Part shown: piece by piece, positions 18,211 to 44,021 of the stretch
Numbering within the stretch: the stretch's first letter is position 1
Layout of the letters: every line of letters starts with the position of its first letter
Assembly (NCBI RefSeq): GCF_019649055.1
Contig: NW_026570242.1
Span: forward strand, 1,302,001-1,366,000
Direction: 5' to 3'
Length of the DNA: 64,000 bases
DNA from: Paramacrobiotus metropolitanus
Lineage: Eukaryota > Tardigrada > Eutardigrada > Parachela > Macrobiotidae
Program-made: the position numbers and the translations under genes
The notes under the pieces: generated by a model
Told to the model about the DNA's origin: nothing
The model's database searches: none
What the model saw: only the letters and a program-made list of their open reading frames with translations

Positions 18211-18243
18211 TATGACAATACCAAAATTTTTGGTATTGTCATA
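18211..18243. repeat. 33-nt perfect palindrome
   Basis: TATGACAATACCAAAA followed by one T and its exact complement. It would form a 16-bp cruciform or hairpin. It lies just upstream of an ACAAGA hairpin repeat. Confidence 0.85.
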
Positions 18244-18249
18244 TGTACT

Positions 18250-18288
18250 ACAAGAGTCATCTTCGGCTTCGCCTCAGATGCTCTTGTG
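18250..18288 (+). repeat. ACAAGAAAC hairpin repeat, copy 3
   Basis: ACAAGAGTCATCTTCGG, then CTTCGCCTCAGATG, then CTCTTGTGGT. The core TCGGCTTCGCCTC is preserved. The outer arms differ from other copies (ACAAGAG rather than ACAAGAAAC), yet the 3' arm has the matching CTCTTGT, a compensatory change. Confidence 0.7.
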
Positions 18289-18632
18289 GTCTACAGTCGA
18301 TTCCCTAAAAAATAGTTTTTGTATGATCGGAAGTTTGAATATTTGATGTATCTTTATATTCATACAATCTTACCGTCCGAAACGTAATTAATTTTGTTTT
18401 TTATGGATTCGTCAACGCGTGGTCTGATTAAGTCGAGCTTGGTCTTAAAACAATTCATATTTTTCGTAGGGAATCATCCTGAATTTTGATTTTTTTAAAA
18501 CGTTCTGCTTAGAAAATTTTTCAAATGGTTCTTAAGTATAAGAAAACGTAAGGAGTACTTAAGATACTTAAGCATTCATAAGTAAAGATTACGTAAGTAC
18601 TGTACTGTAACCATGGATATTTATTTATTAGT

Positions 18633-18810: not shown

Positions 18811-18912
18811 TCAAAAGCTTGTTACCATGGATGCCATAGGGCTAATATGAGCTGGTCTGTTACCACGGGCATGTTATACATCATGCATGTTATAAGTACA
18901 GTACTGCACTTG

Positions 18913-18951
18913 CACAAGAAACAACTTTGGCTTCGCCTCTGCGTTTTTTGT
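18913..18951 (+). repeat. ACAAGAAAC hairpin repeat, copy 4
   Basis: ACAAGAAACAACTTTGGC, then TTCGCCTCTGCG, then TTTTTTGTG. The core is GGCTTCGCCTC and the 3' arm is slightly degraded. Confidence 0.65.
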
Positions 18952-19803
18952 GATTAACTGACGGAAAACCTGCATTAATAATTATATTTCAGTCAGTTCA
19001 TAATTTGATATAGTTACCTTTTAGATTTTGATGAGATCTGAAATAAGTCAAAAAGCACACCACCCTTTTCTTGTATTTCACTTTGTCACTGTCGCACCTT
19101 GGGGCCCAGTGCCCTGAGCTGTACCAACAGTTCGGTAAATCTCTCACCTACAGCAACCCAGCTCACTTAATACTACAACCTACCAAAAATCCTAACTCAC
19201 ATATTTACAGTACGCAGTACCTAGTCGTAAGCCAATATTCATCCGTGCTCAGCTTGTTAACTACATCCGTAACCACGTATACACGATTGATAATGTCGCT
19301 AATGTTTGGGCGAACGGCTGAACCGATTTCGACGCGGCCAAGTGCGCTAGATTCGTCTCAACGGCGCGAATGTTCTTACGTTATTGCGCCATCGATACGC
19401 CCCAACGGGAAGCAGAACCCCAAAACAAACTGTTGCCATGGGCCCCCGTAGGCTAACATAAGCTAATGCGGAATGACAGAGACAGACCGCGCCCTTCGGC
19501 ATCGCTTCGCTAATAATTCATGGAAAACTGTGAAAAACGCTACAAAATAAAGGTTTCTTATATTTCTTCGGAGTCTTAAGTTTTCTTAGGTTTCTTAGTC
19601 TTCTTAGACTTCTTAAATTTTCTCAGAATTATTCTCACATTCTTAGTTTTCTTGGGTTTCTTAGGGTTTGTTAGGTTACTTGTTTTGCTCAAATTATATT
19701 TCCAGTTTTCTTGAGCGGCTGAAATCAACCTTCGTCGAACTAGTGCACGACACAAAATTTGGTGCGGATGTAGATACCGTAAACTGGTTATATGAATACT
19801 AAT

Positions 19804-20343: not shown

Positions 20344-22330
20344 CATCTGTGCCAGGATTTCGGCCTCTCTTACTCGGCGCCGGTAATCTCAGCTTCCACA
20401 AACCCAATTTTCCTCCTTTAAAATGCGTTAGAAACCTCTCGATCACGCGGGTGTTCTAAGACCAATTACTGCCTGCTGTCTGCAGAACCTCCACACCAGT
20501 GGTCACTCTAAAGCTTGTAAATACGTATGTGAGTAAGACTGTGAAAGAATTAGCCGAATAAAACGATCGCAAAGTAAAAGAGCAAAAGAGCAAACAAGTA
20601 AAAGTAAAAAGTAAAAGCAAGGAAAAGAATCGTAGAGCGTCAGATATTTGAATCCGTCCAAGAGGGTAGTGCCGAGCGCGGAGCGCGAGGCATACCTTGT
20701 ATATATAAAAAGTAATGCTTAATATATTGTCCAAGATTTATTTATTAGAAGTTTAGAACGCAGTATAACGAGGCGAGGAAAAATTTAAAAGAATCTTATT
20801 ATTTCCGTCTATTTTTTAACATCATGGTTTTTGTGTGCGTTTCTTTTTAGAAGATTGCGTAGCGTCGAGCATTACATTACGTGCTAGGACAGCCCCGAAC
20901 ATATAGTACGAGATATTATTTGAACGTATATTATTTGATTTACTGCACTTCGCGGTCTGAAATACAGGCCGCAAAGTTTCGACCAGACAAAGCTTTGTCA
21001 TTTTTAACAACTGTAACGTCACTGTCGAAATTCCATGGAAGGATTGCCTGCTCCAGAAAGATGACAATAGTAAAAATAATAATACTAGAACGCTATGCGA
21101 TGCCGCACTGTCTCCCGTTCATATGCAATAGCAGGTCCTGTAATTTCCGTCCATTGGTATGGACTACGGGTTGAATAGTTCTGAATTTCGATCGCTTCAG
21201 AATAAATATTTCATTCTGAAACGAGAAAATGCATTTGACACAATTCGTTGACACAGATTGTTGACGGTTCTGGTCTCATCTGGTCTACGTTGTACGGTTC
21301 CCGTTTCTTGTGTAGGTTTGGTCAGTGGAAAGTGTGACCCTTTGTGTGATTCTGTGCACTTGGCACCTCAAGTACTGATTGTGAGCAGTGAGCAGGGGTA
21401 TCGGTTCCGTTGTCACATAGTCTTAATTTCTGGGAATAGTTCACACCAGTTCCCGTAATTTGCGTTCATTCAGCTGACCTGATCAGTAGTCTCGTACTGC
21501 ACACACACAATGGGCAAACATTCCAGGGGTGTTTTTGGTGGGCGTGCTTCGTGGTCATACACTCACTTGTCCCTTGTCAGCAATTTTGCGCATATGCACC
21601 GAGAGTTTTTGATTACAGTAATTTGATCAGACAGTCGCAGTTTTCCACTCGCTTCCATCGAGCAGACGATGCGTTTTCGTCTTCTGCTCATGTACGTCTT
21701 CTGCTCATGTACGTTCTGCTCACGTTAAATTTTAAAATATGCCAAAACTTTTAAAATGCTTGAAAGAATTGAGGGGTACAAAAGTCTCATTATAGATCCA
21801 ATCCAAACGATCCGATCGATCTTTTCCAAATTTTGCAAGCAAACGTATAATTAACTATGAGTAGCAGGTAGTACGTAAATGTAGGTCGTTTTCACCGAAT
21901 TGGAACGATTTCCACTATTTTGCTTTCAAAATATACCTTTGCAAATTTATACGATTTAAAATTTACGATGTAATTATGCATAAGAACGCGCGAAAGCAAA
22001 AGTTCCCATGCGGTACCCTGCCGATAATAACTTGTTCCGCTTACAAACAGAAATTCTCGGGGATAGTCGCGAGAATTACTTTATGTGGCGTTAATAAAAA
22101 TCTAAGCGCGTGAACTTCTGCTGTTTCCGCTTGTTTCAGCCCACCGGAAGTGCGTCATCGTCACGTGCAGCGTTCGGTCGGTAGAGGGCGCTGTAGCTGT
22201 CACGTTCATGCGGAGACATGCTTGCAGATTGTCAAAACTCCAAACCAGCTCCAACCAGCCGTTGATGTTGAACGCTGCGTATTGCGCAGAAGGCCAGAAC
22301 TGATCGGTACTAGTTATAAAACTTTAAGAA
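20344..22330. other. No gene recognised
   Basis: Duplicate segment to about 20520 (see the 18633 entry), then AT-rich sequence with no splice-supported exon, RNA gene or tandem repeat I can identify. Confidence 0.4.
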
Positions 22331-22333
22331 TTC

Positions 22334-25214
22334 CGGAGCTCCGACAGTTCTAGAATAGTTTCGTTTACTCAGATTGGAATTTTAAGTTTCCCAGATTGTG
22401 GACCTATCATCACAAGTCAAGCCGTACGTCATACTGGAGTGGCTGCAGCTTGCCACAGTTTATTTGATCGCCAGTTTCCTGACGGCATAGACTTGTGTAA
22501 GTGGTTGAGTGGCGTTGTTTTAGTTGGGGTTTTGCTGCAGGTTGAGACGATCGTGGGACGTTTCTGGAGCATCCGTGTTTGCAGCTGTTTATTCATCGCA
22601 ATAGACGAGATATTTTTGGGCTGCTCATCCATTCGTGCTGTGCCTAGTCAGGTTAGTCGTCTTTGCAAAAGTTGGTAATATTGGGTTTTTTGCTTATGAT
22701 CGCATTTCGACTGAACCAGTTTAATTTTACGACCTAGTACAATTCTTCTGATGATCACATAATGTAGAAACTAGGAAAATTCGGAGCTCCGATGGTTGTT
22801 AATGTTGATGTGCGTTAATTTCTTGATGGCTACAAGTATTTCGTATCTAGTTTTTATGACATTTTTATCTTAAATTGATAAAACCTCCAAACTGATCGAC
22901 ATCGACCGCGGAAGGGTGCTTAAGAATACGATCAGTCGTACTGACGCTAATCAACTCTCAGGCGACATTCGGTATGGCAGAATCCAGCGAAGCGCTTTTG
23001 TACGATATCATCGGATCTGAAAATCAGAAGCGATATTCTAAGTTTTTTTAATTGCAGAACATGTTTCCGGCTTCAAGCATGGAGCATTTCAGTGCTCATC
23101 CGCCCCCAGATCCCAAATATTCGGCCAGGTTCCGCCGACGATACACCGGAGCCAACTACCATCAGCCGGACCCCGGTATGTAGTGAAAACACATCGGTTT
23201 CAGACTTGGATTAGAGAGTTGTAATTTTGTTTCTTAGGTACACAAGGCCTGGAAGTTCTTACTGCGACGAAAGAAAGCGTGATTTCATTAGAAGGTAAGT
23301 TAGTTTCAGTACTGCGTGCGAGATAGCGCTGTTTCGGTTATCTGCACAGTCAAAATGTTGCCTCTGAATTCGGAATAAATCTTTGTTACTGTTATCGAGA
23401 TTTCGTAAAATAAATTTAATACGTAGTAAGCGCTTAAACGGCAATGTTTAAGTTCTTAAACAAAAGTTAAATTATTATTGTTTGTTTCATCTGTCTTGAG
23501 ATTTTCAGTTTGTAGGCGGTCACTACCTGACGCGTGGAGAACGGTTCGCACGGCGTATTGGCCAATATTACGCGCGAGGAGATTTCGGGCAGAGGAAAAC
23601 GTTGGCACGTGTATGTATAATTAAAACTTTGTGTATGCTTTTGGTGTGATGTTGATTTAAGAAGTTTCTGATGCTTATAGCCACGCAGACGTGGAAATTA
23701 CCGCCTGTTCCAGCTGCAAAGATTCCGCAAGCAGTGTCATTCTATGTCAACGTTGCTGGACTCCACGTCGCTGTTAAGAAGTACTTGTACATTCCTGCAG
23801 ATCTTGTGCGACGGTTTCCATCTACTGGGAGCTCCCAGGAAATCGTAGGACGCGGGGTTGAGAAACGTATTTATCTGAGTCATTACCAGATAATTCGTCT
23901 GTTGAAAGCTATTTCAAAGTACGTGTATCTGACGCCGGTCTATTCGTACTATTTTTGTATCGGTGGTTTCGCAGGGGTGAACCTACCGACGACCATCGCT
24001 TTGCCTGCGGCGTTTACTCCCAATGGATGTATTCCAAGTGGAACGCAGACCAGGCTGTTGTGTTAATTGAGCTTATTTTCGACGCGGGAGCTCCCGATGC
24101 GCTCATCTTAGACTTGTGTCGACCTTGCGGCGTAGCGTTGAACGGGATTCCTGACGTACGCACAATGCAGCAGTGGATGAATGCTTTTCTCACAGCAGCA
24201 TTCTATAGAGGTCGTCTTGAACTGGCAAAGCAGTTAGCTATACGCATGGATTTGTATGGAATGGCTGTAAATATCCAGAAAAAACTGGACGAACGTCGTG
24301 ACTATCATTTCTGGTAATCAAAAATTCAAATTTTAATTTTTAGATACACCTTTACTTTTTCGGTCATTAAGTTAGTGAAGTTACTGATCATATTTTCTGC
24401 AGCGGGTTATGTTATGATGCTTAATGTAGCAGCCCTTTGAAAGTCAATATTTTACTTTGTATTATTTACTTATAGGGATTACGACGCAGCAGCTACTTTT
24501 GTCCGACGGGAGATGCGGGACGACATGAAGATGCAGTTGAAAATGCGGGAGAAATCAGACACGTATGTATTTACCCAAATTTTATTGGCTTTTATTTTAC
24601 ATCGTGCGAATGAGGAGTATTTTGTATTTTGACAACAAAAATTAATTTTCATTGTAGACCGCTCACTAACCATCCGTGTGCTTACGCATCAAACCGGTGC
24701 AGGGTTACGGGCACTGTTCTATTTATAAATCGTCATATCAGTATTTGCGCTCGTAAACTGCCGGAAGTCAACTGTCCTGTGCCGCGATTGTGGATTGCTG
24801 TTACCGCCCGGAGCTCCGGATGCACTCCACAATCTGCGGCACTCAGCGAATTGCGAGCGGCGTACCGTTGTCTGGACCGATGATCTTCTGCATTCGGATG
24901 TTTTTGAGAATCCACCGTTCCCTCCCGCTGGGCCGCTGGGGCAGCTGTATCTGGTGCCGGCTAATAATGTTGACCGACTGGTTTGTCAGGTAAATAGTAT
25001 ATTTTAAGACTATGTTAATAAATTTTAATAGTATGTTTTTAAAATTAATATTTTTCGTCTTTTTTTACGGTTGCTATTGCATGCACAAAAGTGGGTACAA
25101 AATAATTCAGGCTTGTTTTGTAGGTGTTCGAGCATTTGGCTGATTCCGGGCGTAGTTTCATGCTTCGCTTGAGCGAAGTGCGCCGGTACTGAAAAACTGA
25201 AAAGAGGAGCTCCT
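22334..25214. repeat. GGAGCTCC palindrome array, cluster 1 (6 sites)
   Basis: GGAGCTCC begins at 22335, 22783, 23828, 24087, 24810 and 25206. All six extend to 10-bp palindromes with different but complementary flanks (C/G, C/G, G/C, G/C, C/G, A/T). Sites lie upstream of, inside and just after the multi-exon gene at 23058-25192. They are probably protein-binding sites of a transposon. No function is demonstrated. Confidence 0.85.
23058..25192 (+). CDS. Unrecognised multi-exon gene within GGAGCTCC cluster 1
   Basis: Exons 23058-23175, 23238-23294, 23516-23608, 23681-23918, 23975-24313, 24476-24562, 24658-24989 and 25124-25192 splice with consistent phases up to exon 7. There the frame must change once before LLPPGAPDALHNL, so a single indel is likely. 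The first exon is basic (RFRRRYTGANYHQP). The centre has FYVNVAGLHVAVKKYLYIP and a helical block NAFLTAAFYRGRLELAKQL. The sixth exon is highly charged (RREMRDDMKMQLKMREK). GAPDAL occurs twice (exons 5 and 7), both times because GGAGCTCC is in the coding sequence. I do not recognise the family. The start exon may lie upstream (about 22440-22680). Sharing the palindrome with the transposase region suggests a transposon-encoded accessory protein. Confidence 0.55.
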
Positions 25215-26888
25215 GTTTTTGGTGTAAAGTTAGGTGTGAGTTTTCATATTTTCTCCCGAGGCAGGACAGCATTATGCCGTTGTGATTGGTTATGCGATAA
25301 TTCTGACATTTTTCCTGCTCATTTGACTTTTTCTTACTTGCCCATTTGACTTCTTTTTTTTGCTTGCTTTCTCACAGTTTCCGCGGCTGCGTACTTTTGT
25401 TTGCTTGTTCTGCAACTGTTGTTGTGTGACTGTGTCCTGCACCTATTTGCTTGTGTGGTAATGAACATTTGTGCTAATGAACATCTTTCGTAGTTGTGCT
25501 GTTGTTGATAAAACAGAAATGATTTACTCGTACCGAAAGCTAACGCTATCGTCGTGCGTGGTCTGCAAACTCTTCATTATGTCTTCATTATTTCTGGGCT
25601 GCAAATGTTATTATTCCATTACGGAAACTAGTCTAGCAGCTACTTCTTGCAATTCGGCTCGTGCATACATCTTTTGCCTTCTCTGTCAAACTCTCGCACC
25701 ATATGCACGCATCCTTGTTCTACCGCCATGCCCAGCAAGACGGAGACGATACGGAAAAGTAAGTGTTTACTGGTATATATTGTACAAGAAACAGCCTCGG
25801 CTTCGCCTCCGCGTTTCTTGTGGTCTAAAGTCTACGGCCGGTTTATTTAAATGATTTCGATCAGCTATTTAGTTAACACCTTATTCCTTCAGCGAAACGA
25901 AATGGTCCGAAAACAGCGCTAAAACGCAGATAAGATAAAACGTGAATTTATGGCTTTTGTGCACTCAGATGCAGTCCCTTTGACTCAGCAGGAAGTTTTT
26001 GTTAACTTTCCTTCCCGACTCTGAGACTACCAGATACTAAATTTTTACCTAGAGAATGCTTGCAGTGGTACTTCGGTCACTCGTTCACCTAACGGGCTCA
26101 GTGAATGTAATACCGCGCCGGTCTTTTGTATATGGGCATTCAGATTATGGAAATGTTTTCTGCGGATTCTGTACGGGAATGTTGGGTTCGTGTATCCCTT
26201 TTCATTTTTTGTGGTAATAAAAAACCTAGAATATAGATACCGTATTATTATTCCGTATTATACGGAATAATTTAAGGACTGGTATAAGCTGATTAATTAT
26301 TACTCACTGTCCTTAGTTTTGCGCGGACTGTAACGAAAGGTCAGCCCGTTTGAACGATTTCTTTTGGTCGCAGTCACAGCTAAACGGCTTTTAACGAGCG
26401 GTCTTATCCTTAAGTCATGTTTTCGAAGCCATCCACTAGCAGCATCGTCTGTGTTACTGCTAATTGGCTTTTTAAATTTTGTAGGAGTTACAGTGAAACC
26501 TTTTTAATTTGTTGATCTAAAAAAGTACGGCCAGTTTAAATTTACTGATTTTGTGCCCTATGCAACCGGACTTTGAATTTGTTTTCAAGGTCACCTTGAG
26601 CTTTCAGCTCTACCGGCACCGGAGCTTGTGAACGGGAGCCGGAGCGGATAATTACCAAAACAAAATGCATGTGACACAGTTTCCAGATATGCTGAATCGA
26701 ATGGCGTTAGCAGTTTTTCGATTAATTTTTTGATTTGTTCTGACCAGATCGTACGGGGTTTTCCGTTGTAATATAGATCTTTACCTTGATATACTAAACG
26801 CTTGATCCGGCTATTAAATTAACTTTCACCCTACTCGCGTCTGTTTACCCGATAATCAAAGTTTTACAAAGCTGAATAATACCTAGTC
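25215..26888. other. No gene recognised; GGAGCTCC array stops here
   Basis: No supported exon apart from possible 5' parts of the SLC5A-like sequence. It includes one hairpin repeat (25784-25821). The GGAGCTCC palindrome is absent from here until 30529. Confidence 0.4.
25784..25821 (+). repeat. ACAAGAAAC hairpin repeat, copy 5
   Basis: ACAAGAAACAGCCTCGGC, TTCGCCTCCGC, GTTTCTTGTGGTCT. It is the best-preserved copy and is the inverse of 3842-3879. Confidence 0.75.
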
Positions 26889-29678
26889 ATGATTGCCGTG
26901 GGGATATCGGTAAATGCGTCCACGTGTTTTGCCAATCGAAGCACAGTATCCGGATTTTTCCTGGCCGGACGGCAAGTGAACTGGATTATCGTATGTTGCT
27001 ACAGCTATCGTGGCATTTGCTTCATCTTTATAAGGCATAATTTAATTACTAGGAGTGTAATTCAAAAATATTATAACGACCAGTATATTTGCGTTTGTTG
27101 TGAATGGCTTCTCTTAAAGTTTTTTCTTTGTCTGGATTAATTCTGTGTTGCGTAACCTGCAGATGGGAGCCAGCTTTTTCGCTTCGAATATCGGCAGTGA
27201 TCATTTCATCGGGTTGGCCGGATCCGGCGCCGCAGAAGGTTGAACTGTTAATTGTCTGAAATTTTTATCAAGTGCAGTTTGCGAAACATTAATCAGTGAT
27301 TCGTAATAAGTCATTACTGGTGGGAAAAGTGTTTCTTGGGAGGAAATAATTCATGATGCTGGTCGTTTACATTTATTTTGCCTTTAAAGGTGTTCTTTTG
27401 TTCACAGGCATCAGCGTCGGAGCCTTCGCGTTCAATGTAAGATACGTAATCGTTTGTTATGTGTAAGACGAGCAGGCAGTCATTTTATTTTGGAACTTTT
27501 ATTTTGGGAACTGCGTTCCCAAAATGTCCACTCGACTTTTGTGTAATAGTTTTTTTATGAATATTTATTTTGGAAATCTTTTTTTAGTTGTCAGTAAGAC
27601 TTATTGCGTATGATACGTTATTGCGTATGATACGGCTGCAAGCTTATTAAGGGCGCCAACTGTTTATGGAATGTACGTTTTTAGGCTACAATTATATTAC
27701 AACTACTCGTATGGGTGTTTTTTCATGTTTATATCCCGAGCAAGGTACGTCGCTTAGAAGGATGTTGTTAGTCTATTAATTCATTAGAACTCGTACTGTT
27801 ATTTGATTTGAAGTGTTTGTTGATTTGTCCACTTTATGGTTTTATTGCATTAGGCTTACGTACGCCTTCTTGAAATGCCGCACATACGGCCGACGGCAGA
27901 CCTTTTTCGAAAACTTTATAATGTGTAATATTATTGTTATTTGTGTCGAATATTTTTGAAATGAACAGGTGCTCACGTTCCAAGAATATATGAGCAAACG
28001 ATTTGGAGGGAATCAAATTCCCGTCTATCTTGCCGCACTTTCTCTGGTTTTGTACATTTTCACCAGAATATCAGTAAGTGGTTGCCGGTTGTTCTTACCC
28101 GTTTTGAACAGTATATTCCCGGCATCTTTGTGTGTGTATATAAAATTTTGATGGATAAATGGATTTAGAAAAATTGACAGTGTGATGGTCACAGTGTGAC
28201 GTGAAAAACATGAACTCTTTAGGTGGACATGTTTTCTGGCGCACTGTTAATTAATCAAAGTCTTCGTTGGAATTTGTATGCATCTATTCTTTTACTGCTG
28301 GGAATTACCGCATTGACATCGATAACAGGAGGGCTCACTGCGAAGTAAGTCGATGACATATTATGGGACTTTTATGTCACACTAGTAACTGCATTCTAAA
28401 ATAACTTTCAAATAAATTTCCCGTGCGCTTTGGGGAAAAAATTGCTTCTACATACGTTTTTCTCGAATTCTATACTTTTCAGGGCCATATTTCTTGTAGT
28501 GCTGCAGACATGCGCAATTCTAATCGGATGCGTTTCGATTGCTGTAATATGTGACTTGTTGCAAGAATTGTAACCTTAGTGTCTCTCATGTTCAGTAGTG
28601 GCTTTTAAATTTTAACTGTGCTTCTACCTAATTATCGCGGCTTGTAGCTTTTGTGGAAGTTGGTGGGTATGCCGGTTTGCGGGAAGGATACATGAATTCA
28701 GTGCCAAATACTACACGGTTAAATCTGACCAAATGTGGTCATCCGGAGCCTGATTCCTTCGTCATGCTGCGCGATATTCGCGACCCTGGGATGCCGTGGT
28801 TGGGGTTTGTTATCGGCCAGACGCTTACTCAATATGGTACTGGGCTGCTGACCAGGTAAATTATGTGGTAGAATAAAAACTAGGGAATTCATTGTTTTGC
28901 ATAAATTTTGTAGCGTCAGTTCAAGATGTAAGTAATGATTGATTTTCGGGGCTGTTAATAGAATTAACAATAATATTGATCGCGTTTTGTGTGGTGTAGA
29001 TGATGGTGCAGCGTGTGTTATCCTCGAAAATTATATCGCATGCCCAAGGTGGCTGTATTCTTGCTGGATATTGAAATTGCTGCCATTGTTTAATATGGTC
29101 ATGCCCGGTATGAATAGCCGTGTGTTGTGGCCAGACGAAGTGGGATGCGTCAATCCAGACATTTGTGAACGGATTTGCGGGAACCGTGTTGGTTGCAGTA
29201 ATACTGCATGCCCCAGACTCGTGATGCGTCTAATGCCGGCGGGACTGCGCGGGTTAATGATAGGTACATAAATGCTGCACGGGTGAACGATATCTTGTGG
29301 CTAGTTAGAAAAATCGTCGGGTTTGCGCTACCACCGTAACAGTTTTATTACCAAACTGCGCGCTTTAAACTCGTTAACGTTAGCAACTTCGTACCGCACG
29401 CTAAGTTATAATTATAAGTGTTCTGTAGCGATCATGTTGGTATCCCTGGTGTCCGACTTGTCTTTTATATTCAACGGTGCTTCCAGCTTAGAGTATTTAC
29501 TATTGATGTGTGGATACGTGTACATCAATAAATTTAGCATTTTTAAACACGTGTGGGCTATATGCATACTTATTGTACTAGTACAGTGCGTTTCGCAGGT
29601 ACGTTTCCGCTCAAAAGCCACTCCGAGGGAAATGCTTATTGTTTGGAAGAGTGTACTTCTCGCGGTTTCAATCGCTTG
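26889..29678 (+). pseudogene. SLC5A-like sodium/solute symporter fragment, truncated and frameshifted
   Basis: Eleven exon-like blocks follow the SGLT/SLC5 family order: 26889-26990 (STVSGFFLAGRQVNW), 27162-27238 (GASFFASNIGSDHFIGLAGS), 27408-27436, 27685-27744, 27969-28073 ([20 protein letters not shown]), 28223-28344, 28483-28543, 28648-28855, 29000-29263 ([15 protein letters not shown], then CGNRVGCSN), 29429-29519 and 29599-29678 (ending VSIAW). GT-AG borders and phases fit except for single-base losses near 28648, 28829, 29072 and 29492. Each lies in or beside a T run. The protein would be a multi-pass plasma-membrane Na+-coupled transporter. Blocks for the remaining C-terminal helices are absent before SREBP-like sequence begins, so the gene is truncated. 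It is either a pseudogene or captured fragment, or a real gene with assembly errors. Confidence 0.75.
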
Positions 29679-29902
29679 GTGCGTACATTCCTGTTTCCAG
29701 CGTTTACGTGATTGTTTTACTTACAAAATTACAATTAGACTCAGCAGTACCTGCTATATAAATGTCTTGCAAAAAGCTAACTTACTTTCTTGCAAAAAGC
29801 TAATATGATTCCATTAATCCAGCAAATGCAATGCGGTTAGTTATATATCTACATCCAATCTATTGCAATTGTCTGTGTTTTATCTGAATTAATTGTCTGT
29901 AG

Positions 29903-30251
29903 TTGGTTTTACAACAACCGCAACCGGTTCAAAATTCTGGACTTCCAGCTGTACTATCACCATTCCCATACAGCCAGCAACTACCACACCCGTATCTCTA
30001 ATTACGCTACGCCTGAAGGACTATCGACACCTGAAAAGCTGCCAATCAGAAGGTGTTTTAACTGGCAGATATGCCATTTGTCAAAAATATTTTCATGGAA
30101 TTTGAATAATATCTTTTGTAGATTGGCATAGGAAAATGTGAAGCAGTTAAAAAGCGGGTATCGCACAACGAAATTGAACGCAAATATCGGACAAGCATAC
30201 GATGGAATCGCTGAACTTGGTCAGCTGCTGTCTCGCCCTGATGAAATAAAG
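29903..30251 (+). pseudogene. SREBP-like bHLH transcription factor fragment, frameshifted
   Basis: Exon-like block 29903-30052 starts with a Gln/Pro-rich stretch (LVLQQPQPVQNSG) and, after a frame change, ends PEKLPIR. In SREBPs an EKLPI motif precedes the bHLH domain. Block 30122-30251 encodes KKRVSHNEIERKYRTSI, a bHLH basic region with the Tyr that marks SREBPs in place of the usual Arg. Two bases appear lost, then DGIAELGQLLSRPDEIK gives the rest of helix 1 and the loop. Helix 2, the membrane segments and the regulatory domain are not found downstream, where the transposon cluster begins at 30529. SREBPs control sterol and lipid gene transcription after release from the ER membrane. The assignment rests on short motifs. 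Confidence 0.58.
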
Positions 30252-30569
30252 GTACGAGTAATTAATTACCTTTGTAAAAGTACTGTAATTGTGCGTTCAG
30301 TAAAAGTATAATTTATCTGCAATTCTACACTATTACTACCAGCACTGAACTCCTCCACGACCACCCCGTCAGCGTGGCTGGTTCCTGCTCGCTGCTGACG
30401 TGCATTGAAAATGTGTGTTGTAAAGAAAGAACGTCCGAATTCTAACAGAAATTCGTAGTTTAATCATTGAACTCTGGGCAACAACAAGAATACCTAAAAA
30501 AATTGTTGTAATGTTTTAATTAAAATCGGGAGCTCCTATATTAAGTAAAATTTAGACACTAGATGCACA

Positions 30570-33500
30570 CTAGATTGGCGTTTGAGCCATTATAGAAACA
30601 ACCAACTCATTACCAGATCTGTCTTGAATGAGCATGCCGTTATTGCGAACAGAACCGGTTTTTAGAACGGCCAGCTGGTTAGAAATTTCGACACAAGTAT
30701 AATTTTTCTGAAATAAAGTATTATTCAGAAAACGATCTTTGCTGAACTCGTAATATCTCCATGCTTTCCTCTGGAGAACGGTAGCGATGATAAATGCTGC
30801 TCTTCGGTTCACTAAAATTATAGCCCGTGCAATGTACGGATTGCCCTTTTGATCCAAAAATACTGAGTCGACATGGTTTTCTTTCCTTTTATAGGAAGCA
30901 ATATCCAGGCGCGAACCAGATTCTGTGATACATCGCTTGTATGTCAACAGCTGAGGAGCTCCTCTTAAAATTCCCAATCCGTGAAGGTAGGCATACACCG
31001 GACGATCTGTGGCTTGCAGTTCTTCGATCGATTTTCCTTTTCCACACAGATATGCCGCTCCCGTGAGCGACTTCAGCTTTATTGCGCTTGCTGGTAAGTT
31101 CTTTGTCAAGGACTGACGCATCCGTTCCACTTCCGGTGTAACGTTGTCTCCAAAGCACGCCATCAAAAAATCAGAAGAAAGTCCAAATGCAACCTTTCCA
31201 GCGATTTCCTTGTGCTCGTTGGCTCCTTTCAGGTGAGATTTCATCTTTCCGGCACCCAATCATTTCGGAAACCATTCATTTCGGAAACCATTCATTTCGG
31301 AAATCATTCATTTCGGAAATGCATTTCAACACTTTTCCTTTACAGTTAGTCACAGAAAACGTTATTTCGGCCATTATTGTGTAGAAACAATTATACAATT
31401 GTGAATTGTCAACGAAAAAGCATTTCAGGGATCTTTTTCATAAACTTTTATGTACTGTTCTGAACTGACAAGTGCCATGTCGAGGGTTCGATTTGCTTGT
31501 GTTGTGGGTTACAATGAGAGCACAAGAATTAACTGCATCATAATCGAGCGCAGCATTGTTACCAACATTTAGCAACTATTAGTGCGCACGATCGAACACG
31601 GCCGCAGATAAGCGGCGTCATAACCAAAACAATAATCTCTGATACACGAAAAAAAACCACAGCAGTTGCGCGTAGAAGTATTTCATAAACCTTGCCCATA
31701 AGCCATGCATTTGCATGTTACAGCCTAACGTGAGACGTGGCGATAAAATAATGTTGCGATATGTTGCGTTGATGTTGCGCTGAAATGAAGATTGTACAGA
31801 ATTTGTACATGGGTTACTGTTATTTCGGGAACCCGTTTAATTGTACAGATACAAGTACAAAGTACACAGACTGTACACTGGCTACTAAACATAATAGTAC
31901 CAGTTATAATAATATTAAACTACTGTTATAATGGTATTGCAATTACAAGTGATAACGTATGGTTTCCGAAATGAATGGTTTCCGAAATGAATGGTTTCCG
32001 AAATGAATGGACACCATCTTTCCTACGTAGTCTTCATGCTCGAAAGCCCAAAACGATGTTGGATGGCCTAGTAGATACACGTATTCGACCAGATGGCAGC
32101 ACATTTGGTGCAAATTATACGACATGCTTCTTGTGCCAAAAGTTTGTTGAATTTCTAGGCCAAACTGGATCAGTAGAAAGGAGGTTTCCACTTTCCAGCA
32201 GTCCAGCTTCAGTGATATCCTGACCGAACAAATACTGCGTGGCGGCAGCAAACTTAGCGTACACGAGGAGCTCCTCTTCTGGCACAATTCCGTGCAAGCA
32301 AGGTAAACTGTAATACAACGTGAAAGCCATGTACATGGAACCTTTCCACTGGCCTATCTCATCTAACGTTTTAGGCTTCCGTAATGTAGACGGCGGTTGC
32401 AGTTTTTCTAGGAAAGAATTAATTTTTTTCCGGTTATCTGGCGTTAACTTCCACGCTCTGCCCTTTAAGCGATACTCCATAAATTTCTCTTCCAGCCCTT
32501 CGAAACACAAGTGCATAGGCTCTACCGGCATTTGGGCAGGTAAGTTATAATCTGTCAGTTTCATCAGTTCAGACATTCCTTGCAGTCCAATAAACTCGTG
32601 CAGTTGATCAGGAGCTCCTAAAACTACTGCACGCGCACGCGCTCGCTCTTTCGTGATCTGAGGATCTCGAAGTTTTGGTAGGCGGAATGGCGCCTGCTTT
32701 GAATTTACCATTGGGTAGCATTTTATCGTTCTTTCGTCTACGCCAGGATTCAAAAGAACTCTTTCCCCAGCATCTTCACAGTGAACGCATCCAAAGTCAG
32801 CCATGAAGGAGCTCATATGCGCAATCGGCCATCGTTCCTGGCTGTCAGCGATATAAGTAAGAACTCTCACAGGCAGTATTTTTTGTTCACCATTTTCCGT
32901 GTAAATAATGCCGTTTTGTTCCAGGTCGAGGAGCTCCTGCATAACTGGATGTAGAAGTGCCTGCTTCCAGTTCGCGGGTTGCTGCCATTTTTGTTGAAAC
33001 AATTTTTCACTTTTGTTCCATAGTCCTAGAATGTGCGGTGTTGGCCGTTTGTTTTTCACTGGTAAGTGGTAGCTTAAAATCCATATATTTGATTTTGACG
33101 ATTTCGCTGTTGCCGCTCCATCGGAAAATAGCGCTATCGGTAGAAATCGTCCAAGCTTTCGGGCATAATTTTTATAAATCTCACCATCTGTAAAAGAAGT
33201 AATGCAATCTTCGCCTTGTGCTGGCACATTGTAGGAGCTCCTAAATTTGGCCGATTGCGCTAACGCTGTTATCCTTGGCTTTAATGGGAAATGCACGAAG
33301 GTAAACAGGCTGAGTGAACCTTTCGGATACTGGCTTTCGCATTTTGGGCAGTTGGTAGTTCCTTCGGTCCGCTGTTCTGCGCCAATGTAACTGCCACACA
33401 AAGGGCATGCAACATGGAGGTCGTATTTTGGGAACATATTTCTTTTTCGGAGTCCCGCTTCCAGTTGGTACACCGTTCTGGGGAATTTGGAATTTTCAGG

Positions 33501-34091
33501 TAACAATAAAGAAATTAAATTAAGCAACGATTCCTGCGCGTCGTAAGATATTTTAGACTTGTCACAAGTCTTTAAAAATAATCCCAAAAATTGACCAATT
33601 GTGATTTTAGCAGATGGGACAGGAACACGATCCCAGTCGTCGAGGAGCTCCTCGTGGACTTCTTGTGGCTGTTGTTGAAATTCTTCATGATCTATAACAA
33701 TAGTATTCTCGGCTGCTAGTGTGCTACGTAATAGATCTACTCGTACCATTTTCGCCAGGTTCTGCCGCAACAGCTTCAATCAACTCTTGCTGATCGGTGG
33801 CATCCACCCCGTTAAGAATTTCTGTCCAGTCGTCGAGGAGCTCCTCACGAACTTGATGGTTTCCTGCGTAGCACATAGCGGTTCAATCACACTTCCGTTC
33901 CAGATATATCAAGTATTAAATTCTTGATGAATTTGAGATTTAATATATCCGGAACAGCAGTGTTACTTGCCGTCGCCGATACCACCATCATCCCGATAAT
34001 CAGCGAACAAAGCTGCTTCTGAAATTGTGGTTTTCCGTCTGCGGTTCCGGTTGGCATGCTGCCGCATGCCAACTTTACGCCTGCGTTCCAT
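30570..34091 (-). CDS. EnSpm/CACTA (Transposase_21-like) transposase, interrupted
   Basis: Minus strand. Likely first exon 34091-33967 starts with a basic, NLS-like Met segment (HANRNRRRKTT). A second piece spans about 33900-33780 (REELLDDWTEILN). The main frame is 33779-32115 (554 residues), followed by 32160-32024 and 31241-30570. It contains two Cys pairs (CPLCGSYIG and CPKCESQYPKG), then a DDE-like core: LFSDGAATAKSSKSNIW, YIADSQERWPIAHM, CVHCEDAG and PVEPMHLCFEGLEEKFME. After two apparent single-base losses in A/T runs near 32150, NLHQMCCHLVEYVY follows. A 764-bp MITE then splits DYVGKM from KSHLKGANEHKE. Such proteins cut and paste CACTA-type elements. Seven GGAGCTCC sites lie in it. 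Inactive as assembled. Confidence 0.75.
31251..32014. mobile_element. 764-bp MULE-like MITE inserted in the transposase gene
   Basis: Flanked by 9-bp direct repeats CATCTTTCC (31242-31250 and 32015-32023). Removing the element and one repeat restores the conserved transposase reading frame. Ends are inverted: GGCACCCAATCATTTCGG on the left and the complement of GTGTCCATTCATTTCGG on the right. The subterminal regions carry three to four tandem ATTTCGGAAACCATTC units in opposite orientation at the two ends. A 9-bp duplication and G-starting termini fit Mutator-like elements. No coding capacity. Confidence 0.88.
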
Positions 34092-34447
34092 TTCACAAGG
34101 TAAACGATTTTATAAATTATTTTTAATTTTAAAATAATCAATGAACAACTAAAAAGTAAACAAACCTTTCCAGTTATAATTAACAATAAATTTTTTAAAT
34201 GAAGAACAGTTATTTTCACCTCTTTCTCTAAGCGGGTAGATGTGGCGTGCCGAAGTTGCGCGCGGAGTCGCGAGCACAGTTTTGAAGGGCCTTCTTTGTG
34301 TGCAATATTAGCATATTAATTCCCGCTTGTGCTGATTTTTGAGCGGAAGTCTTACTGGGAACGATTCCTGCCCACTGTTATTTATGAAGTTTTAAACTGT
34401 GTGTTTTGGAAATAACGGCTAGCTTCACGAGTCACCAGTGACATCGA
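34092..34447. promoter_or_regulatory. Divergent promoter interval of the transposon genes
   Basis: About 350 bp separate the proposed transposase start (minus, 34091) from the first segment of the plus-strand accessory gene. By position it should carry both promoters. The first GGAGCTCC site on the plus side is at 34461, embedded in the 14-bp palindrome CGCGGAGCTCCGCG. No clear TATA box is assigned. Confidence 0.4.
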
Positions 34448-37355
34448 TTGCTTTCTCCGCGGAGCTCCGCGTTGGTTGTTTCGTTTCAGTTGTTTAACAT
34501 GTTGTTTCTGACTATTTTATTTTTCACGTTGCAGAAACTGAGTCAGATTTTAGAACAAACCATTTTTCGATCGCTTATGAAAATGTGTAGTAAAATTACG
34601 ACTGTTCGGCAGGACCAGAGAATAAAATTTAATGCCTGCGTTTGTCGTTTAGCGGCAAAAGGAGGTAATTCAGTATGCATGCAAAATTCGCCGATATTAT
34701 TTGCATGGCCGCGGATATTTGCAGGTGCTGTTATTTCCCTGTTCCACGATGGAATTTATCATGTTTCGGGAGCTCCCTTTTCTGATATCAAGTATTATTA
34801 CGCGGCAAAGAATCAGTTTGATGAGGACTTTGTTCCGGGCGATAAGTACAAATGCTATTTCCCTGAATCGAAGAAGGACCACGTAGCCGAATTTGTTGGA
34901 TGGTTTCCCACGGAAGAGCGAGCCGAAATGCGACTCACCGAGCTGCAGCAGCGGGTAAATATTATTACGAAGTGAATATTATTATTAAGTAAAGTGAATT
35001 TTTAAGATAAACTAGTTGATTATACTTTGTGTGTGTGATTTTATTTTAAGGACGGCAAAAAGTCTGGAGCTCCAGCAAAGCGCCGGGCGACAAAGACGAC
35101 CGACACGGAAATCCACAAGAAAGCGAAGCAGCCGGACGATAAGCAAAGTGGCTGCCAAAAACCGCTAACGTTTCAGGAGCGAATGCGACAGAATGGCGTT
35201 GTATTGGGGAATTTAGCAGGCAAGTTAAGAACCGTGCAATCTGTCGCTTGTTTAATGGAAGTGTAGGAGCTCCTAACGATACTTTAACTAAAACATTTAG
35301 AAACTGATTTACATAATTGTTCCACGCACAGAAAGCCGTAGCGGTGGCCATCAACCGAGCACGTCCACAGGTAAACCTTCCTAACCTGTGCAGCTAATGT
35401 GACCGCATGTTTAAAGGGTAGCCATCACCGCGTAATTTTTGGCAAGATTTCTGTTCGGCAAAATAGGAATCACCAGCCTGGCATCAAAGGAGCTCCAGTT
35501 GCGAGTGCAGCTGTGTGGAAACACATAGCTGCCACACGCTTTGCCGACAACTTCAACCAATGGTAGGGTTTGCATTTTGCATCACCATTAATGTCGCGTA
35601 GCGTCATATTTCGCAGATCATTCGAACCAGCCGCTGGAAGAGCCGTCTGCTTCATATACGGAATTGAAACGTCGGAAATTCGCGTGCAAAAATATTTTAA
35701 ATAATAAAGCTGTTTTAATTTTTCTAGGAATGCAGCCATTGCAGTGTCCAGCGGCAGATGTATCTTTTGATCGTAAAGTTGGAAAGTCGACCGACTTTTA
35801 CAACTTATGGGACACATTAAGCACTGGTATTTAAAATCAATTAAACGATTTAAAAACATCAAGGAGCTCCTTTTTTTCAGATGGTGCTTGGACAAGCCAG
35901 ACGGATTTAGTGGAAAAAATTGCTTTCGATGTTAAACAAGCGGAACTGGATCGCGATGCATCATTCGGTTAAATTTAAAAGGAAAGTTTATGTCTACGGC
36001 TAACAAAATGGCATATTACAGAAATGTGGGAGAACGCTGCTGTCCAACAGCAAAGAGCGCAGGGGTTGTCGGAAGACGATTTATACGTGGCACCGGACAC
36101 GGAGATTTTTCGCGCCCTGGCCATGGCGGAAGTTCCGGTGGTTGAAGATGGGCCGACTCGCAACACCGCCATCGTCACGTTTCCACAAGCCGTTTTAATG
36201 GGAGCTCCCTGTATGAAAACCATCTCGTATAACACGTTTGCTTATAATTACAGCTGTGCATATTAGTGATATTACTGATTTCTGATTTTTAGCCGACGGG
36301 ACTGCTAATAGCTCAGATGTGAAAGTGCCCACTGTACTCGTAAAGAACACAGCGGACATGCGTAAGTAATTAACTCAACACACCAGCGCTATTATTTTTC
36401 TTGCTAGCTGCTCTTGATATTTTTTAATCAACATTTTGCGACTTTTATCGTTTTTTTTGTAGTGAAAAAGGAGTTCCATGTTGTCCAGCTGCCGCAAATT
36501 TCAGACAATGCCGATTTGTTGGAGGAAGGGTTTCCAGTGAAATTCAAAGATCACCGTTGGAAATGGCCAGAAGTAGGAGCTCCTGCTACGGCTGATGACG
36601 GTGCGTTTCATCTCCTCCGTTTTGAAGTAGACTGCTATTTTATGAGGTTTTTGCGATCGTTTAAACGTTTTACAGAATACTATAATCCTCTGCGCACCTC
36701 AGAGCGGGAATTTCATCTAAAGAATCCCCCGAGGGTGAACCGTTCTGCAATTACTCTGCGCGACCAGTTGTCTCCATGGTTTTTCCAGTTGGGAGGACCC
36801 GGAAAGAAACACCTGGACGTCGCCTTTCCAGCCGTTTTTGTGGACGATGATTGCCATTTTTTAGAGGCTCAGTTTCTTAATCGGAAGATCACCGCAGAGA
36901 AGTTTTCGTGGTACCTGATGTCGCGAATGATGGGAGGAGCTCCTGGCCTCATTCGTTTGGCGACGCTGTACGAAATGCACAAACAAACTGCCACTAACAA
37001 GCGGCAGTATAACTTCTACGAAAGAGTTTTGGGAATTGACTTCTTCCGTTCTGTTGACAGTAAGTGCTTGTGCGACTCCTACTACGGGTTTGTGGAAAGT
37101 AATGATTTCTTTAAAAATTCATTTAAATTAAGTAAATCTGTTTCCTTTTCAGAAAAGACTCGGGATTTAATTCGCGCTATGGTGCCCACTAATTCGGGCG
37201 GCGCTGAAGCAGCTGCTCGCGCTGCAGTAATTAAAGGCCTCCCGGAAATCCCCAAATCCATGCAGTCCCACTTCGGCCACAAGTTTGCCAACTGGATGGA
37301 CAAGTTCAAGGAACAGCACGAAAGAAAAAGAGCTGTGGACCGCGCATTTTTCTAA
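34448..37355 (+). CDS. Unrecognised transposon accessory gene, multi-exon
   Basis: Plus-strand exons with GT-AG borders: about 34535-34954, 35051-35223, 35332-35370, 35467-35563, about 35728-35811, 35880-35969, about 36022-36220, about 36293-36361, about 36463-37060 and 37153-37355 (stop). The N-terminal exon has a compact beta-like pattern (FHDGIYHVSGAPFSDIK, then FVPGDKYKCYF and AEFVGWFPTEERAEMRL) resembling Tudor/BEN-associated modules of other transposon proteins, which is weak inference. The C-terminal part (LRDQLSPWFFQLGG, then FPAVFVDDDCHFLEAQFLNR, ending KEQHERKRAVDRAFF) is unrecognised. GAP tripeptides recur because GGAGCTCC is embedded in the exons. The junction at 35370/35467 does not keep frame as assembled. 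By position, head-to-head with the transposase, it resembles the second, DNA-binding gene of CACTA elements. Confidence 0.55.
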
Positions 37356-37373
37356 CCATCTGAAGGAGCTCCT

Positions 37374-37801
37374 ATTGTGGTGGTATTTGTTGCTGTTGAA
37401 ATAAAATTTTGTTCCGTTACTTCGATGCCTGCGCATTATTGATATTTCTTCTGTTTACGTTTTTTCGTTACCGGGGTTACGATTTTATGCTGTTTATATG
37501 CTGAACGTTGGTCTTATGATTGGTCGGTTTGTGCGCGCACGGTACGGGCTTTTATGCCGTTTGAATGCTATGATAAAAGTTACTGAATTTGGCGATTGGA
37601 GCATTTATTTCAAACCCAGCCAATAACTAGCTAGCAGTATGACGTCATTACACACGCCTGCCAACCACATAGCTATTTCTAATTGGCTTATTTCTAACCA
37701 TATAGGAATCGGATGAAACACGCATTGCACCAATGCGAGAGCGGACATAGTAAACAGTCCCGTTGATATGTGGAGTCATATTCTCGCAACGAGCTACGAT
37801 C
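37374..37801. other. No gene recognised; 3' flank of the transposon cluster
   Basis: The last GGAGCTCC is at 37365. I found neither a CACTA-type terminal repeat here nor a matching left terminus near 30300-30530, so the transposon limits are unresolved. Confidence 0.35.
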
Positions 37802-38191
37802 TCACTTTTTTCGGCAGGGTATGTCACTATCACAGTATGCTGTGCAAGTCAAAGAATTGTAAATCCTAGTCCCATTTTCCGCCCAGCGCTCTGTGGTTTT
37901 GCAGATCTTTCCGAATTCCTTCGATTTGGAGCCACAACTTTGAAAGGACATTGTCTTGACCCATGGTATAGTGTGGCTCTCAAAATCTTGCCTGCATGTA
38001 TCAATATTATCTGGACAGTTTACGGCATTTGTTGATACAGAGCAAGATGGTCCATATTCCTCTTTGCCGTAGGTAATACCTTTTCCTTTCATTATTTCAT
38101 TGCAGAAATAGCACTTAATACCTGTCACCACGACATTCTGGTGTTCAAAAAATGCAACAATACAGAGTTGAAGAGTTATCCAAATCTCCAT
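37802..38191 (-). CDS. Ly6/uPAR-like secreted or GPI-type protein
   Basis: 129 residues from the Met of MEIWITLQLC, chosen because a hydrophobic signal-peptide-like segment starts there. After cleavage the domain has the Ly6 cysteine pattern: KCYFCNE, CSVSTNAVNCPDNIDTC, SFQSCGSK, ICKTTERW, SLTCTAYCDSDIPC. Ly6/uPAR domains are small three-finger folds acting outside the cell. The frame stops right after the last Cys (CRKK, stop), and a GTGAGA donor overlaps the stop. A further exon with the C-terminal tail, for example a GPI signal, is therefore likely but not identified. A second Ly6-like gene lies at 59837-60782, beyond the LTR element. Confidence 0.68.
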   Translation of the reverse strand: MEIWITLQLCIVAFFEHQNVVVTGIKCYFCNEIMKGKGITYGKEEYGPSCSVSTNAVNCPDNIDTCRQDFESHTIPWVKTMSFQSCGSKSKEFGKICKTTERWAENGTRIYNSLTCTAYCDSDIPCRKK

Positions 38192-41789: not shown

Positions 41790-41918
41790 GAGTTAGTGGA
41801 AAAGCCACTACTCCACGATTTTGAAAATTCTCGAGTTAGTGGAAAAGCCACTACTCTACGATTCTGAAAATTCTCGAGTTAGTGGAAAAGCCACTACTCT
41901 ACGATTTTGAAAATTCTC
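41790..41918 (+). repeat. Three tandem 43-bp hairpin units in the leader
   Basis: Starts at 41790, 41833 and 41876, nearly identical. Each holds TAGTGG-AAAAG-CCACTA, a 6-bp stem with a short loop, in the plus-strand RNA. In the 5' untranslated leader. A packaging, dimerisation or translation role is possible (inference). Confidence 0.9.
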
Positions 41919-42199
41919 GAATTTCGGTAAATCAACAGAGCGGATATAACCGTCTCGTGTTGTGTTAACGCGGTATCACTGATAGGCGGAATTCAGCCAC
42001 AGTGTGTAACTAGCGGTAAAATACAGTAAACAGCTGAAACCTGAAAGGTCAGCTGTGGTAAATTGAAACGTAACGAAAGCAAGTTGTACATGCATACTTA
42101 AGTGTATGCTGTAACAACGAAATACGAAACCAGCGTTAAGCAGTACTTTTCGTCTGGTGGGTTCAAACGAAACGGTTCTGTCAGTTGTTCTGTCAGCCC

Positions 42200-43899: not shown

Positions 43900-44021
43900 A
43901 TCATCATCCTTGTCAATGGGCTTAGTGCCATTGACGTGAAAAGTATGAAAACAGCATACTGCACGGGGAATTGAACGTCGTAAAACAGAAATTTTCGGGA
44001 TTGGTAGCAGATTTCAAATTA

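Follow-up and report, generated by a model that had tools for sequence, protein, structure and literature searches.

Motif arrays known from transposons lie at the ends of the element or in non-coding repeats. By analogy, the nearest known roles seem to be those of TnpA on the subterminal repeats of CACTA (En/Spm) elements and of VANC on the arrays of VANDAL elements (PMC2613891, PMC5735166, PMC10398659). In the soybean CACTA element Tgmt*, the subterminal repeats, 159 and 732 bp at the two ends, are able to pair into palindromes (PMC2613891), and TnpA also reactivates a methylated promoter (PMC1636069). The VANDAL elements of Arabidopsis, from the Mutator group, carry many copies per element of a short family-specific motif that is rare in other elements; the VANC21 motif, YAGTATTAY, is mainly non-coding, in tandem repeats and in one orientation (PMC5735166). 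Here we describe a CACTA-like DNA transposon of the tardigrade Paramacrobiotus metropolitanus, family A, whose reference copy lies in a 64-kb stretch of the genome (NW_026570242.1, 1,302,001-1,366,000; the window, with positions counted from its first base), and which carries the palindrome GGAGCTCC along its entire body.

This element resembles the CACTA/TnpA system in the tnp2-type transposase of its relatives and in a motif that differs between close families. It differs in that the sites are perfect self-palindromes, covarying in two families, and occupy the whole element, exons and introns included, while the known repeats are confined to the ends. With VANDAL elements it shares the short, abundant, family-specific motif. 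Here, however, the motif is palindromic, lies also in coding DNA and stands outside tandem repeats, and the transposase belongs to another superfamily: its relatives are tnp2, and the accessory protein of the element, in place of a VANC protein, has no Pfam match. The arrays of TnpA and VANC thus differ from the tardigrade arrays in both the place and the form of the motif. Distinctive here are a self-complementary word that recurs through genes at nearly even intervals, the use of other words by related families, and changes paired on the two sides of the word in some copies. To our knowledge, no eukaryotic DNA transposon has been described as marked from end to end in such a way. No prior description of such an array was found in the open-licence PMC literature, a scope that makes this a weak absence; a tardigrade repeat-curation study treats two other species (PMC11071193).

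An exhaustive count gave 24 exact GGAGCTCC in the window, all inside 22335-37372, listed here with the first base pair beyond the core:

22335..22342, site 1, GGAGCTCC, next pair C/G
22783..22790, site 2, C/G
23828..23835, site 3, G/C
24087..24094, site 4, G/C
24810..24817, site 5, C/G
25206..25213, site 6, A/T
30529..30536, site 7, G/T in the window, A/T in the copies C278, C109 and C19
30955..30962, site 8, A/T
32267..32274, site 9, A/T, transposase open reading frame (ORF), core altered in C278 and C19
32611..32618, site 10, A/T, transposase ORF
32930..32937, site 11, A/T, transposase ORF
33234..33241, site 12, A/T, transposase ORF
33644..33651, site 13, A/T in the window, T/A in the other three copies, transposase ORF
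33837..33844, site 14, A/T
34461..34468, site 15, C/G
34769..34776, site 16, G/C, core altered in C19
35066..35073, site 17, T/A
35266..35273, site 18, A/T
35489..35496, site 19, A/A in the window, A/C in C278 and C109, A/T in C19
35863..35870, site 20, A/T, accessory-gene intron, directly 5' of the 3' splice site, core altered in C19
36201..36208, site 21, G/C, end of an accessory-gene exon, core altered in C19
36576..36583, site 22, A/T, accessory-gene exon
36936..36943, site 23, A/T, accessory-gene exon
37365..37372, site 24, A/T, directly after the last codon of the accessory gene

Our recount agrees with an earlier note on this DNA in the number of sites, in their confinement, and in the first pair beyond the core, which is complementary at 22 of the 24 sites (13 A/T, 4 C/G, 4 G/C, 1 T/A), the exceptions being one G/T (site 7) and one A/A (site 19). 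The expectation given there, six, is replaced by 9.75 of 24 under a permutation that preserves the base composition of both columns, and a count of 22 was not reached in any of 20,000 rounds. One step further out, the second pair is complementary at 13 of 24 sites (6.4 expected, P 0.003); pairs 3, 4, 5, 7 and 8 are not above expectation by the same permutation, and pair 6 is weakly raised (12/24, P 0.015, with eight positions tested). Around the control palindromes of the window, of 4, 6 and 8 bp, the next pair is complementary in 28, 27 and 29% of cases. The symmetric unit of family A has about 12 bp, that is, the core with pairs 1 and 2; where the earlier note had several sites extending to 12-14 bp, 14 bp is reached at 3 of the 24.

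The first site lies 319 bp inside the left end and the last 447 bp inside the right end, and, as the earlier note had claimed, the array is not subterminal; it is spread over the whole element, coding exons included. With nested insertions allowed for, the spacing is more even than random (coefficient of variation, CV, 0.46, P 1.5e-4), and the smallest interval, 193 bp, was never matched in 20,000 simulations. Nine periods tried for nucleosome or helical phasing gave no strong phase, judged without a computed significance.

In the whole genome, GGAGCTCC occurs 1470 times in 169.8 Mb and its backward-read control 907 times. The word is not equally common elsewhere: outside the four family A copies its density is 8.2 per Mb, from which 0.13 sites per element or 0.5 per window would be expected. 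AGGAGCTCCT occurs 157 times, with 49 in the four copies; the remaining 108 among 1385 (7.8%) are near the chance level. The next pair is complementary at one of the four isolated GGAGCTCC whose surroundings were read, and not complementary at the isolated site C109:185276. GGAGCTCC is also present in twos or threes, at distances of 136-149 bp, at C1:3033040-3033338, C3:2966989-2967134 and C6:2549215-2549360, which probably belong to another repeat family.

The five sites in the transposase ORF have frame offsets 2, 0, 2, 1 and 2 and so use all three frames. The accessory gene has three sites in exons and one in an intron, and the others are intronic or outside genes; at least 8 of the 24 are in coding exons. 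Since the coding sites use every reading frame and some sites are intronic, the constraint acts on DNA and not on protein, and it is the DNA that is conserved at the array sites. A protein-level cause (GAP, EELL or RSS peptides) is ruled out on the same grounds. Insertion of an 8-bp mini-element is likewise unsupported, since the coding sites fall mostly where relatives align without a change of length in the protein alignments inspected; an exception is the site at C57:558673, of the family B described below, which adjoins an indel. A repeat scan of the window found no tandem units carrying GGAGCTCC.

Three other copies of family A, named by their contigs (C278, C109 and C19), were located by a transposase search and contain 23, 24 and 14 GGAGCTCC. 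Their aligned cores are identical to the window in 23 of 24, 23 of 24 and 14 of 18 cases, against 79%, 78% and 23% of random 8-mers (P 0.03, 0.02 and 1.4e-6). The one non-identical core of C109 has lost a base from a run of C and leaves GGAGCTCC whole, which gives the 24 sites. The most diverged copy is C19, with 81% identity over the aligned part; its site statistics cover the 18 aligned sites, the other half of the copy not being found in the stretch read. Base agreement between C19 and the window is 140/144 in the core, 32/36 at pair 1, 30/34 at pair 2, 23/34 at pair 3 and 355/442 at bases 8-20 outward. The first pair is complementary at 22/23 sites of C278, 22/24 of C109 and 14/14 of C19, and the second at 11/23, 12/24 and 7/14, respectively. 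The flanks in other copies are therefore not at the random level, and site positions are conserved as well as density. Site 13 differs on both sides, being A/T in the window and T/A in the three other copies, a change that can also be explained by conversion from the neighbouring site 14.

A distant relative, family B, was studied in its copy at C57:553-561 kb, whose transposase is about 22% identical to that of family A. This copy has no GGAGCTCC and carries a second word, with 19 GTCGAC in 10 kb against 1.4 expected. The family consensus is TGNNN-GTCGAC-N'N'N'CA, and 18 of the 19 sites have a complementary next pair. Pairs 1-4 are complementary at 18, 19, 18 and 17 of the 19 sites (6.6, 7.4, 6.8 and 13.0 expected), the nearly fixed pair 5 at 19/19, and pairs 6-8 at or below chance. 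When one chance site (556196) is set aside, all 54 variable pairs, over 12 different triplets, are Watson-Crick and none is G-T. The sites are on average 405 bp apart with a CV of 0.20, against 0.93 for random placement, and such evenness was not reached in 20,000 simulations; this calculation includes one core-mutated site, and one listed position is 5 bp off. The copies of family A and the stronger covariation of family B support the earlier claim that symmetry itself is constrained.

A search with the C57 transposase gave further copies with open frames in C19 (92%), C122 (90%) and C116 (77%), and other relatives, among them C105, C46, C214 and C82 at 44-47%. The B sites of C19, C122 and C116 are at the same transposase positions as in C57; the patterns tried recovered neither the offset-810 site in C19 nor the offset-2292 site in C122. 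One site reads TGCGGGTCGACCCGCA in C57, C19 and C122 and TGCAGGTCGACCTGCA in C116 (C116:275039-275054), at the homologous position (offset 1823 against 1820), and this two-sided change is silent in the transposase, as both words code AGRPA (standard code, by hand). C116 lacked TGCGGGTCGACCCGCA and the pattern was chosen to test for a paired variant there, the expectation being recorded only after the search. A second two-sided change separates C120 and C347, with TGCGGGTCGACCCGCA (TGCGGG...CCCGCA), from C54, C371 and C479, with TGCTGGTCGACCAGCA (TGCTGG...CCAGCA); this group is in register with the neighbouring sites, C479 by one interval only.

Genome-wide, TGNNNGTCGACNNNCA occurs 363 times and its reversed control 236 times. 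Of 50 such places in a listing, 27 stand in clusters, where 23 are complementary throughout and 4 at two of the three pairs; the other 23 are isolated, and none of these is fully complementary. The clusters among the places listed have 2-5 sites and are on contigs C1 (two), C3, C4, C5, C6, C7 and C9. For the pattern TGCGN..., full complementarity holds at 17 of 17 sites within element copies and at 0 of 12 elsewhere; for TGAAG..., it holds at 14 of 15 places. Fully complementary B words are also present at C22:7446, C38:998779 and C72:160763, whose surroundings were not seen. In the cluster at C1:1898039-1902063, three sites are perfect and two have a mutated core; the cluster is like C57 over only 120 bp and looks like a non-autonomous element whose array may have been kept without genes. 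Within the stretches read, terminal inverted repeats (TIRs) were not established for family B, for the C1 cluster or for the family C described below. Apart from the arrays, TGGCGGTCGACCGCCA is found at C57:569034, C19:1017575, C116:268598 and C122:98036, which is 5-28 kb past the last known B site in these four copies, so that the elements may be much longer than the parts read.

We propose, at about even confidence, that the palindromes form a dispersed recognition array, specific to each family and read by a factor which the element would encode or recruit, in a role like that of TnpA or VANC. The sites, spread over the entire transposon with its exons, would serve as recognition sites in cis, and the factor would coat or mark the whole element and not its ends alone, as is suggested by sites that follow one another evenly from end to end, through the genes as well. 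The array would label this DNA as self, so that it might be kept accessible, expressed or assembled for transposition. The bases of the fixed core would be those contacted by the factor, and across the free but paired arms the two site halves would pair, at least transiently, as arms of a hairpin or cruciform. We infer that the reader is a protein, that it is encoded by the element, and that its action leads to marking or mobilisation.

Selection on self-complementarity in families A and B is part of this best reading. The earlier note had read the covariation as a sign of a dimeric DNA-binding protein or a cruciform; the step to a dimer does not follow, since half-sites that are read independently need no complementary free positions. 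A dyad-binding factor explains the fixed bases of the three array families, each with a different core, and not the matched free positions of A and B. Pairing between the two halves would explain the match, and we favour a factor that would meet the site at least transiently in paired-arm form, or symmetry selected for another reason. A wider reading, tentative and as a whole somewhat improbable, is a symmetry code: the sites would be evenly spaced, with a core that names the family and arms that are free if paired, written by substitution into coding DNA and read along the whole element either in the form of paired arms (hairpin or cruciform) or through the pairing of one copy with another. 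With these arrays it can be tested directly if recognition of a DNA transposon extends over its full length, what recognises it, and which form the DNA then has. They are an animal case to set beside the sequence-specific anti-silencing of plants, and a clean case for reading selection at the DNA level against protein coding.

Several observations weigh against the proposed recognition array. Pair 1 is not complementary at two of the 24 sites of the window, and at site 19 this holds for three of the four copies; cores have been lost, one in C278 and four in C19. A shifted frame and nested insertions have damaged the window copy, so that function there at present is unlikely. In family B, the homologous site near C57:556816 is one-sided in C57 (pair 4 G/T) and has two of three pairs at C122:130318 and C116:277967, while C116:278419 keeps one of three pairs and C479:5089 two of three. 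No binder was identified: the accessory protein has no Pfam match, its predicted structure is unusable (mean predicted local distance difference test, pLDDT, 33.8). A search for homologues of this protein found only its own locus and none in the B, C and D loci.

Family C (C9b, with a transposase frame of 872 amino acids) has 22 GCGA-NN-TCGC against 0.13 expected. Its NN is complementary at 6 of 22 sites, with flanks at chance, and the sites are randomly spaced (CV 0.85). Symmetric free positions are hence no general property; the array of family C is an ordinary dyad, also dispersed. The three copies of subfamily D (C11, C76 and C9a), about 70% identical to each other and 37-40% to family B, have no array in a search for perfect palindromes, gapped dyads and enriched 6-8-mers, which gave none like those of A, B or C. 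C11 has 7 GTCGAC against 1.3 expected, but only one of the seven is symmetric, and D shares further coding-like segments with B despite the absence of an array. Two shared segments outside the transposase, on the opposite strand (C76:216862-217158 with C57:556477-556692, and C76:219898-220251 with C57:554064-554294), are candidate accessory genes.

It is possible, though rather doubtful, that the sites are recognised by structure, as extruded hairpins or cruciforms or as hairpins in a displaced single strand bound by a structure-specific factor; the core would then be the loop region, and the arms would need only to pair and would hence be free for coding. The exclusively Watson-Crick free arms of C57 and the two-sided changes between copies agree with this, as does the folding of four B sites as single-stranded DNA, with a 6-bp stem and a 4-nt loop (-3.5 to -6.9 kcal/mol). 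The three family A sites tried, however, fold poorly (0, -1.0 and -1.9 kcal/mol); one family C site gave -2.3 kcal/mol. Moreover, structure alone does not require the fixed core and outer TG/CA, family C lacks covariation, and extrusion of palindromes of 12-16 bp from duplex DNA is unfavourable.

We consider it unlikely that a plain homodimer needing fixed bases is combined with a mutation bias, by which template switching in imperfect inverted repeats would make or repair symmetric free positions. Quasi-palindrome mutations that extend arm identity are reported in yeast, and such switching renders the arms of inverted repeats identical; it is, however, a mutation process that yields no shared core, spacing or family specificity (PMC3820800). 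The plain dyad of family C and the possible conversion of site 13 from site 14 are in line with such a bias. On the other hand, isolated matches to the B patterns are asymmetric (0/23 and 0/12), yet the three words on C22, C38 and C72 are fully symmetric, and in broken copies or fragments symmetry is lost, not kept (window site 7; C55:950818).

Stem-loops in the element transcripts, serving an RNA-binding protein or self-pairing of the transcript, are very unlikely. A conserved loop with a covarying stem is the usual mark of RNA structure, and the sites lie in exons and introns; but RNA would tolerate G-U, and G-T is found in 0 of the 54 free pairs of C57, the palindromes are equal on both strands with genes in both directions, and the stems of family A are short. 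Barely credible is a signal to the host, by which the sites would attract or escape a host factor (silencing, insulation, nuclease) and not an element protein, for although every array family has a word of its own, as could result from an arms race, each word is rare outside the copies of its own family (GGAGCTCC at 8.2 per Mb), which makes a separate host protein for each unlikely.

The window element itself is one transposon with later nested insertions, and of the "transposon complex" of the earlier note the transposon stands and the complex does not. Its features are as follows:

22016..37819, family A CACTA-like DNA transposon, whole copy with nested insertions, flanks TA/TA, limits set by homology to C109 and C278
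22016..22024, + strand, left TIR, CCCTGCCGA
23063..25000, + strand, approximate region of a putative second accessory gene, seen as short open stretches
25473..28463, nested insertion without sites, absent from C109 and C278
28464..29601, site-free segment common to the window, C109 and C278, perhaps an older insertion
29602..30454 against C278 (to 30508 against C109), nested insertion without sites
30573..31259, - strand, open stretch, possible C-terminal part of the transposase, judged from its place
31251..32014, nested insertion without sites, resembling a miniature inverted-repeat transposable element (MITE), with inverted arms of 16-nt tandem units
32118..33779, - strand, transposase open stretch, 554 amino acids, tnp2-like, RAG1/Transib-like fold in the predicted model
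35730..37355, + strand, accessory gene LOC129586759, 388 amino acids, seven exon matches, no Pfam match
37811..37819, - strand, right TIR, CCCTGCCGA

The TIRs are 9 bp long, and homology to C109 and C278 starts and stops at the element ends. Target duplications are of 2-3 bp: TCA/TCA in C109, AAC/AAC in C278 and TA/TA in the window, the left end of C19 lying outside the part read. TIRs that start with CCC have been proposed for animal CACTA-like TRC elements (PMC1636069), and CCCTGCCGA has this start at both ends, while the CACTA start of plant CACTA sensu stricto is absent. We call the element a CACTA-like transposon of the TRC type, without the plant CACTA TIR core. It resembles SmTRC1, of the CACTA superfamily, in the CCC start, in Transposase_21 and in a length of about 9 kb or more. 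It differs in the target duplication, 2 bp in SmTRC1 and 3 bp in two copies here, and in the dispersed palindrome array, none being described in the part of the SmTRC1 paper considered (PMC1636069).

Searched directly, the transposase had a single homologue, from Leptopilina (26%), and a profile search added seven. P0004 and P0008, from the profile search, exceed the cut-off of PF02992 Transposase_21 (38.4 and 35.1 against 28.6); P0001, P0005, P0006 and P0007 match it below the cut-off, and P0003 and P0009 have no match at E 0.01. The ORFs of the window, C57 and C11 gave no Pfam match above the cut-off, and the tnp2 assignment is made through the relatives only. In structural alignments the predicted transposase model (mean pLDDT 68) comes closest to RAG1, followed by the Transib and P-element transposases, and in this model the fold is that of a DDE (RNase H-like) transposase. 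Between the stretch 30573-31259 and that at 32118-33779 lie a 765-bp insertion and a shift of frame, and the alignment of the relatives continues at 32003-32209 in another frame. The accessory protein matches P. metropolitanus LOC129586759 exon by exon. In the region of the possible second accessory gene, no Pfam family scored above its cut-off for 23656-24063 or 23862-24314. Without the segment 28464-29601, the site interval there would be about 300-340 bp (subtraction by hand).

Scans of the window for tRNA and Rfam families gave nothing. By eye, a near-palindromic stretch of about 60 nt, a possible hairpin, lies between the divergent genes at 33895-33955. The MITE-like insertion (31256-32010) has arms of tandem 16-nt TCATTTCGGAAACCAT, 93-98% complementary and about 640 bp apart. 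A repeat of 43-65 bp is common to 18234-18298, 18910-18952 and 25768-25832, the third copy being inside the insertion 25473-28463. Outside the element, a 43-bp unit is present three times in tandem at 41790-41923, with 96% identity, and 43935-51792 encodes a Ty3/gypsy-type polyprotein in two long open frames, with gag, protease, reverse transcriptase, RNase H and integrase domains.

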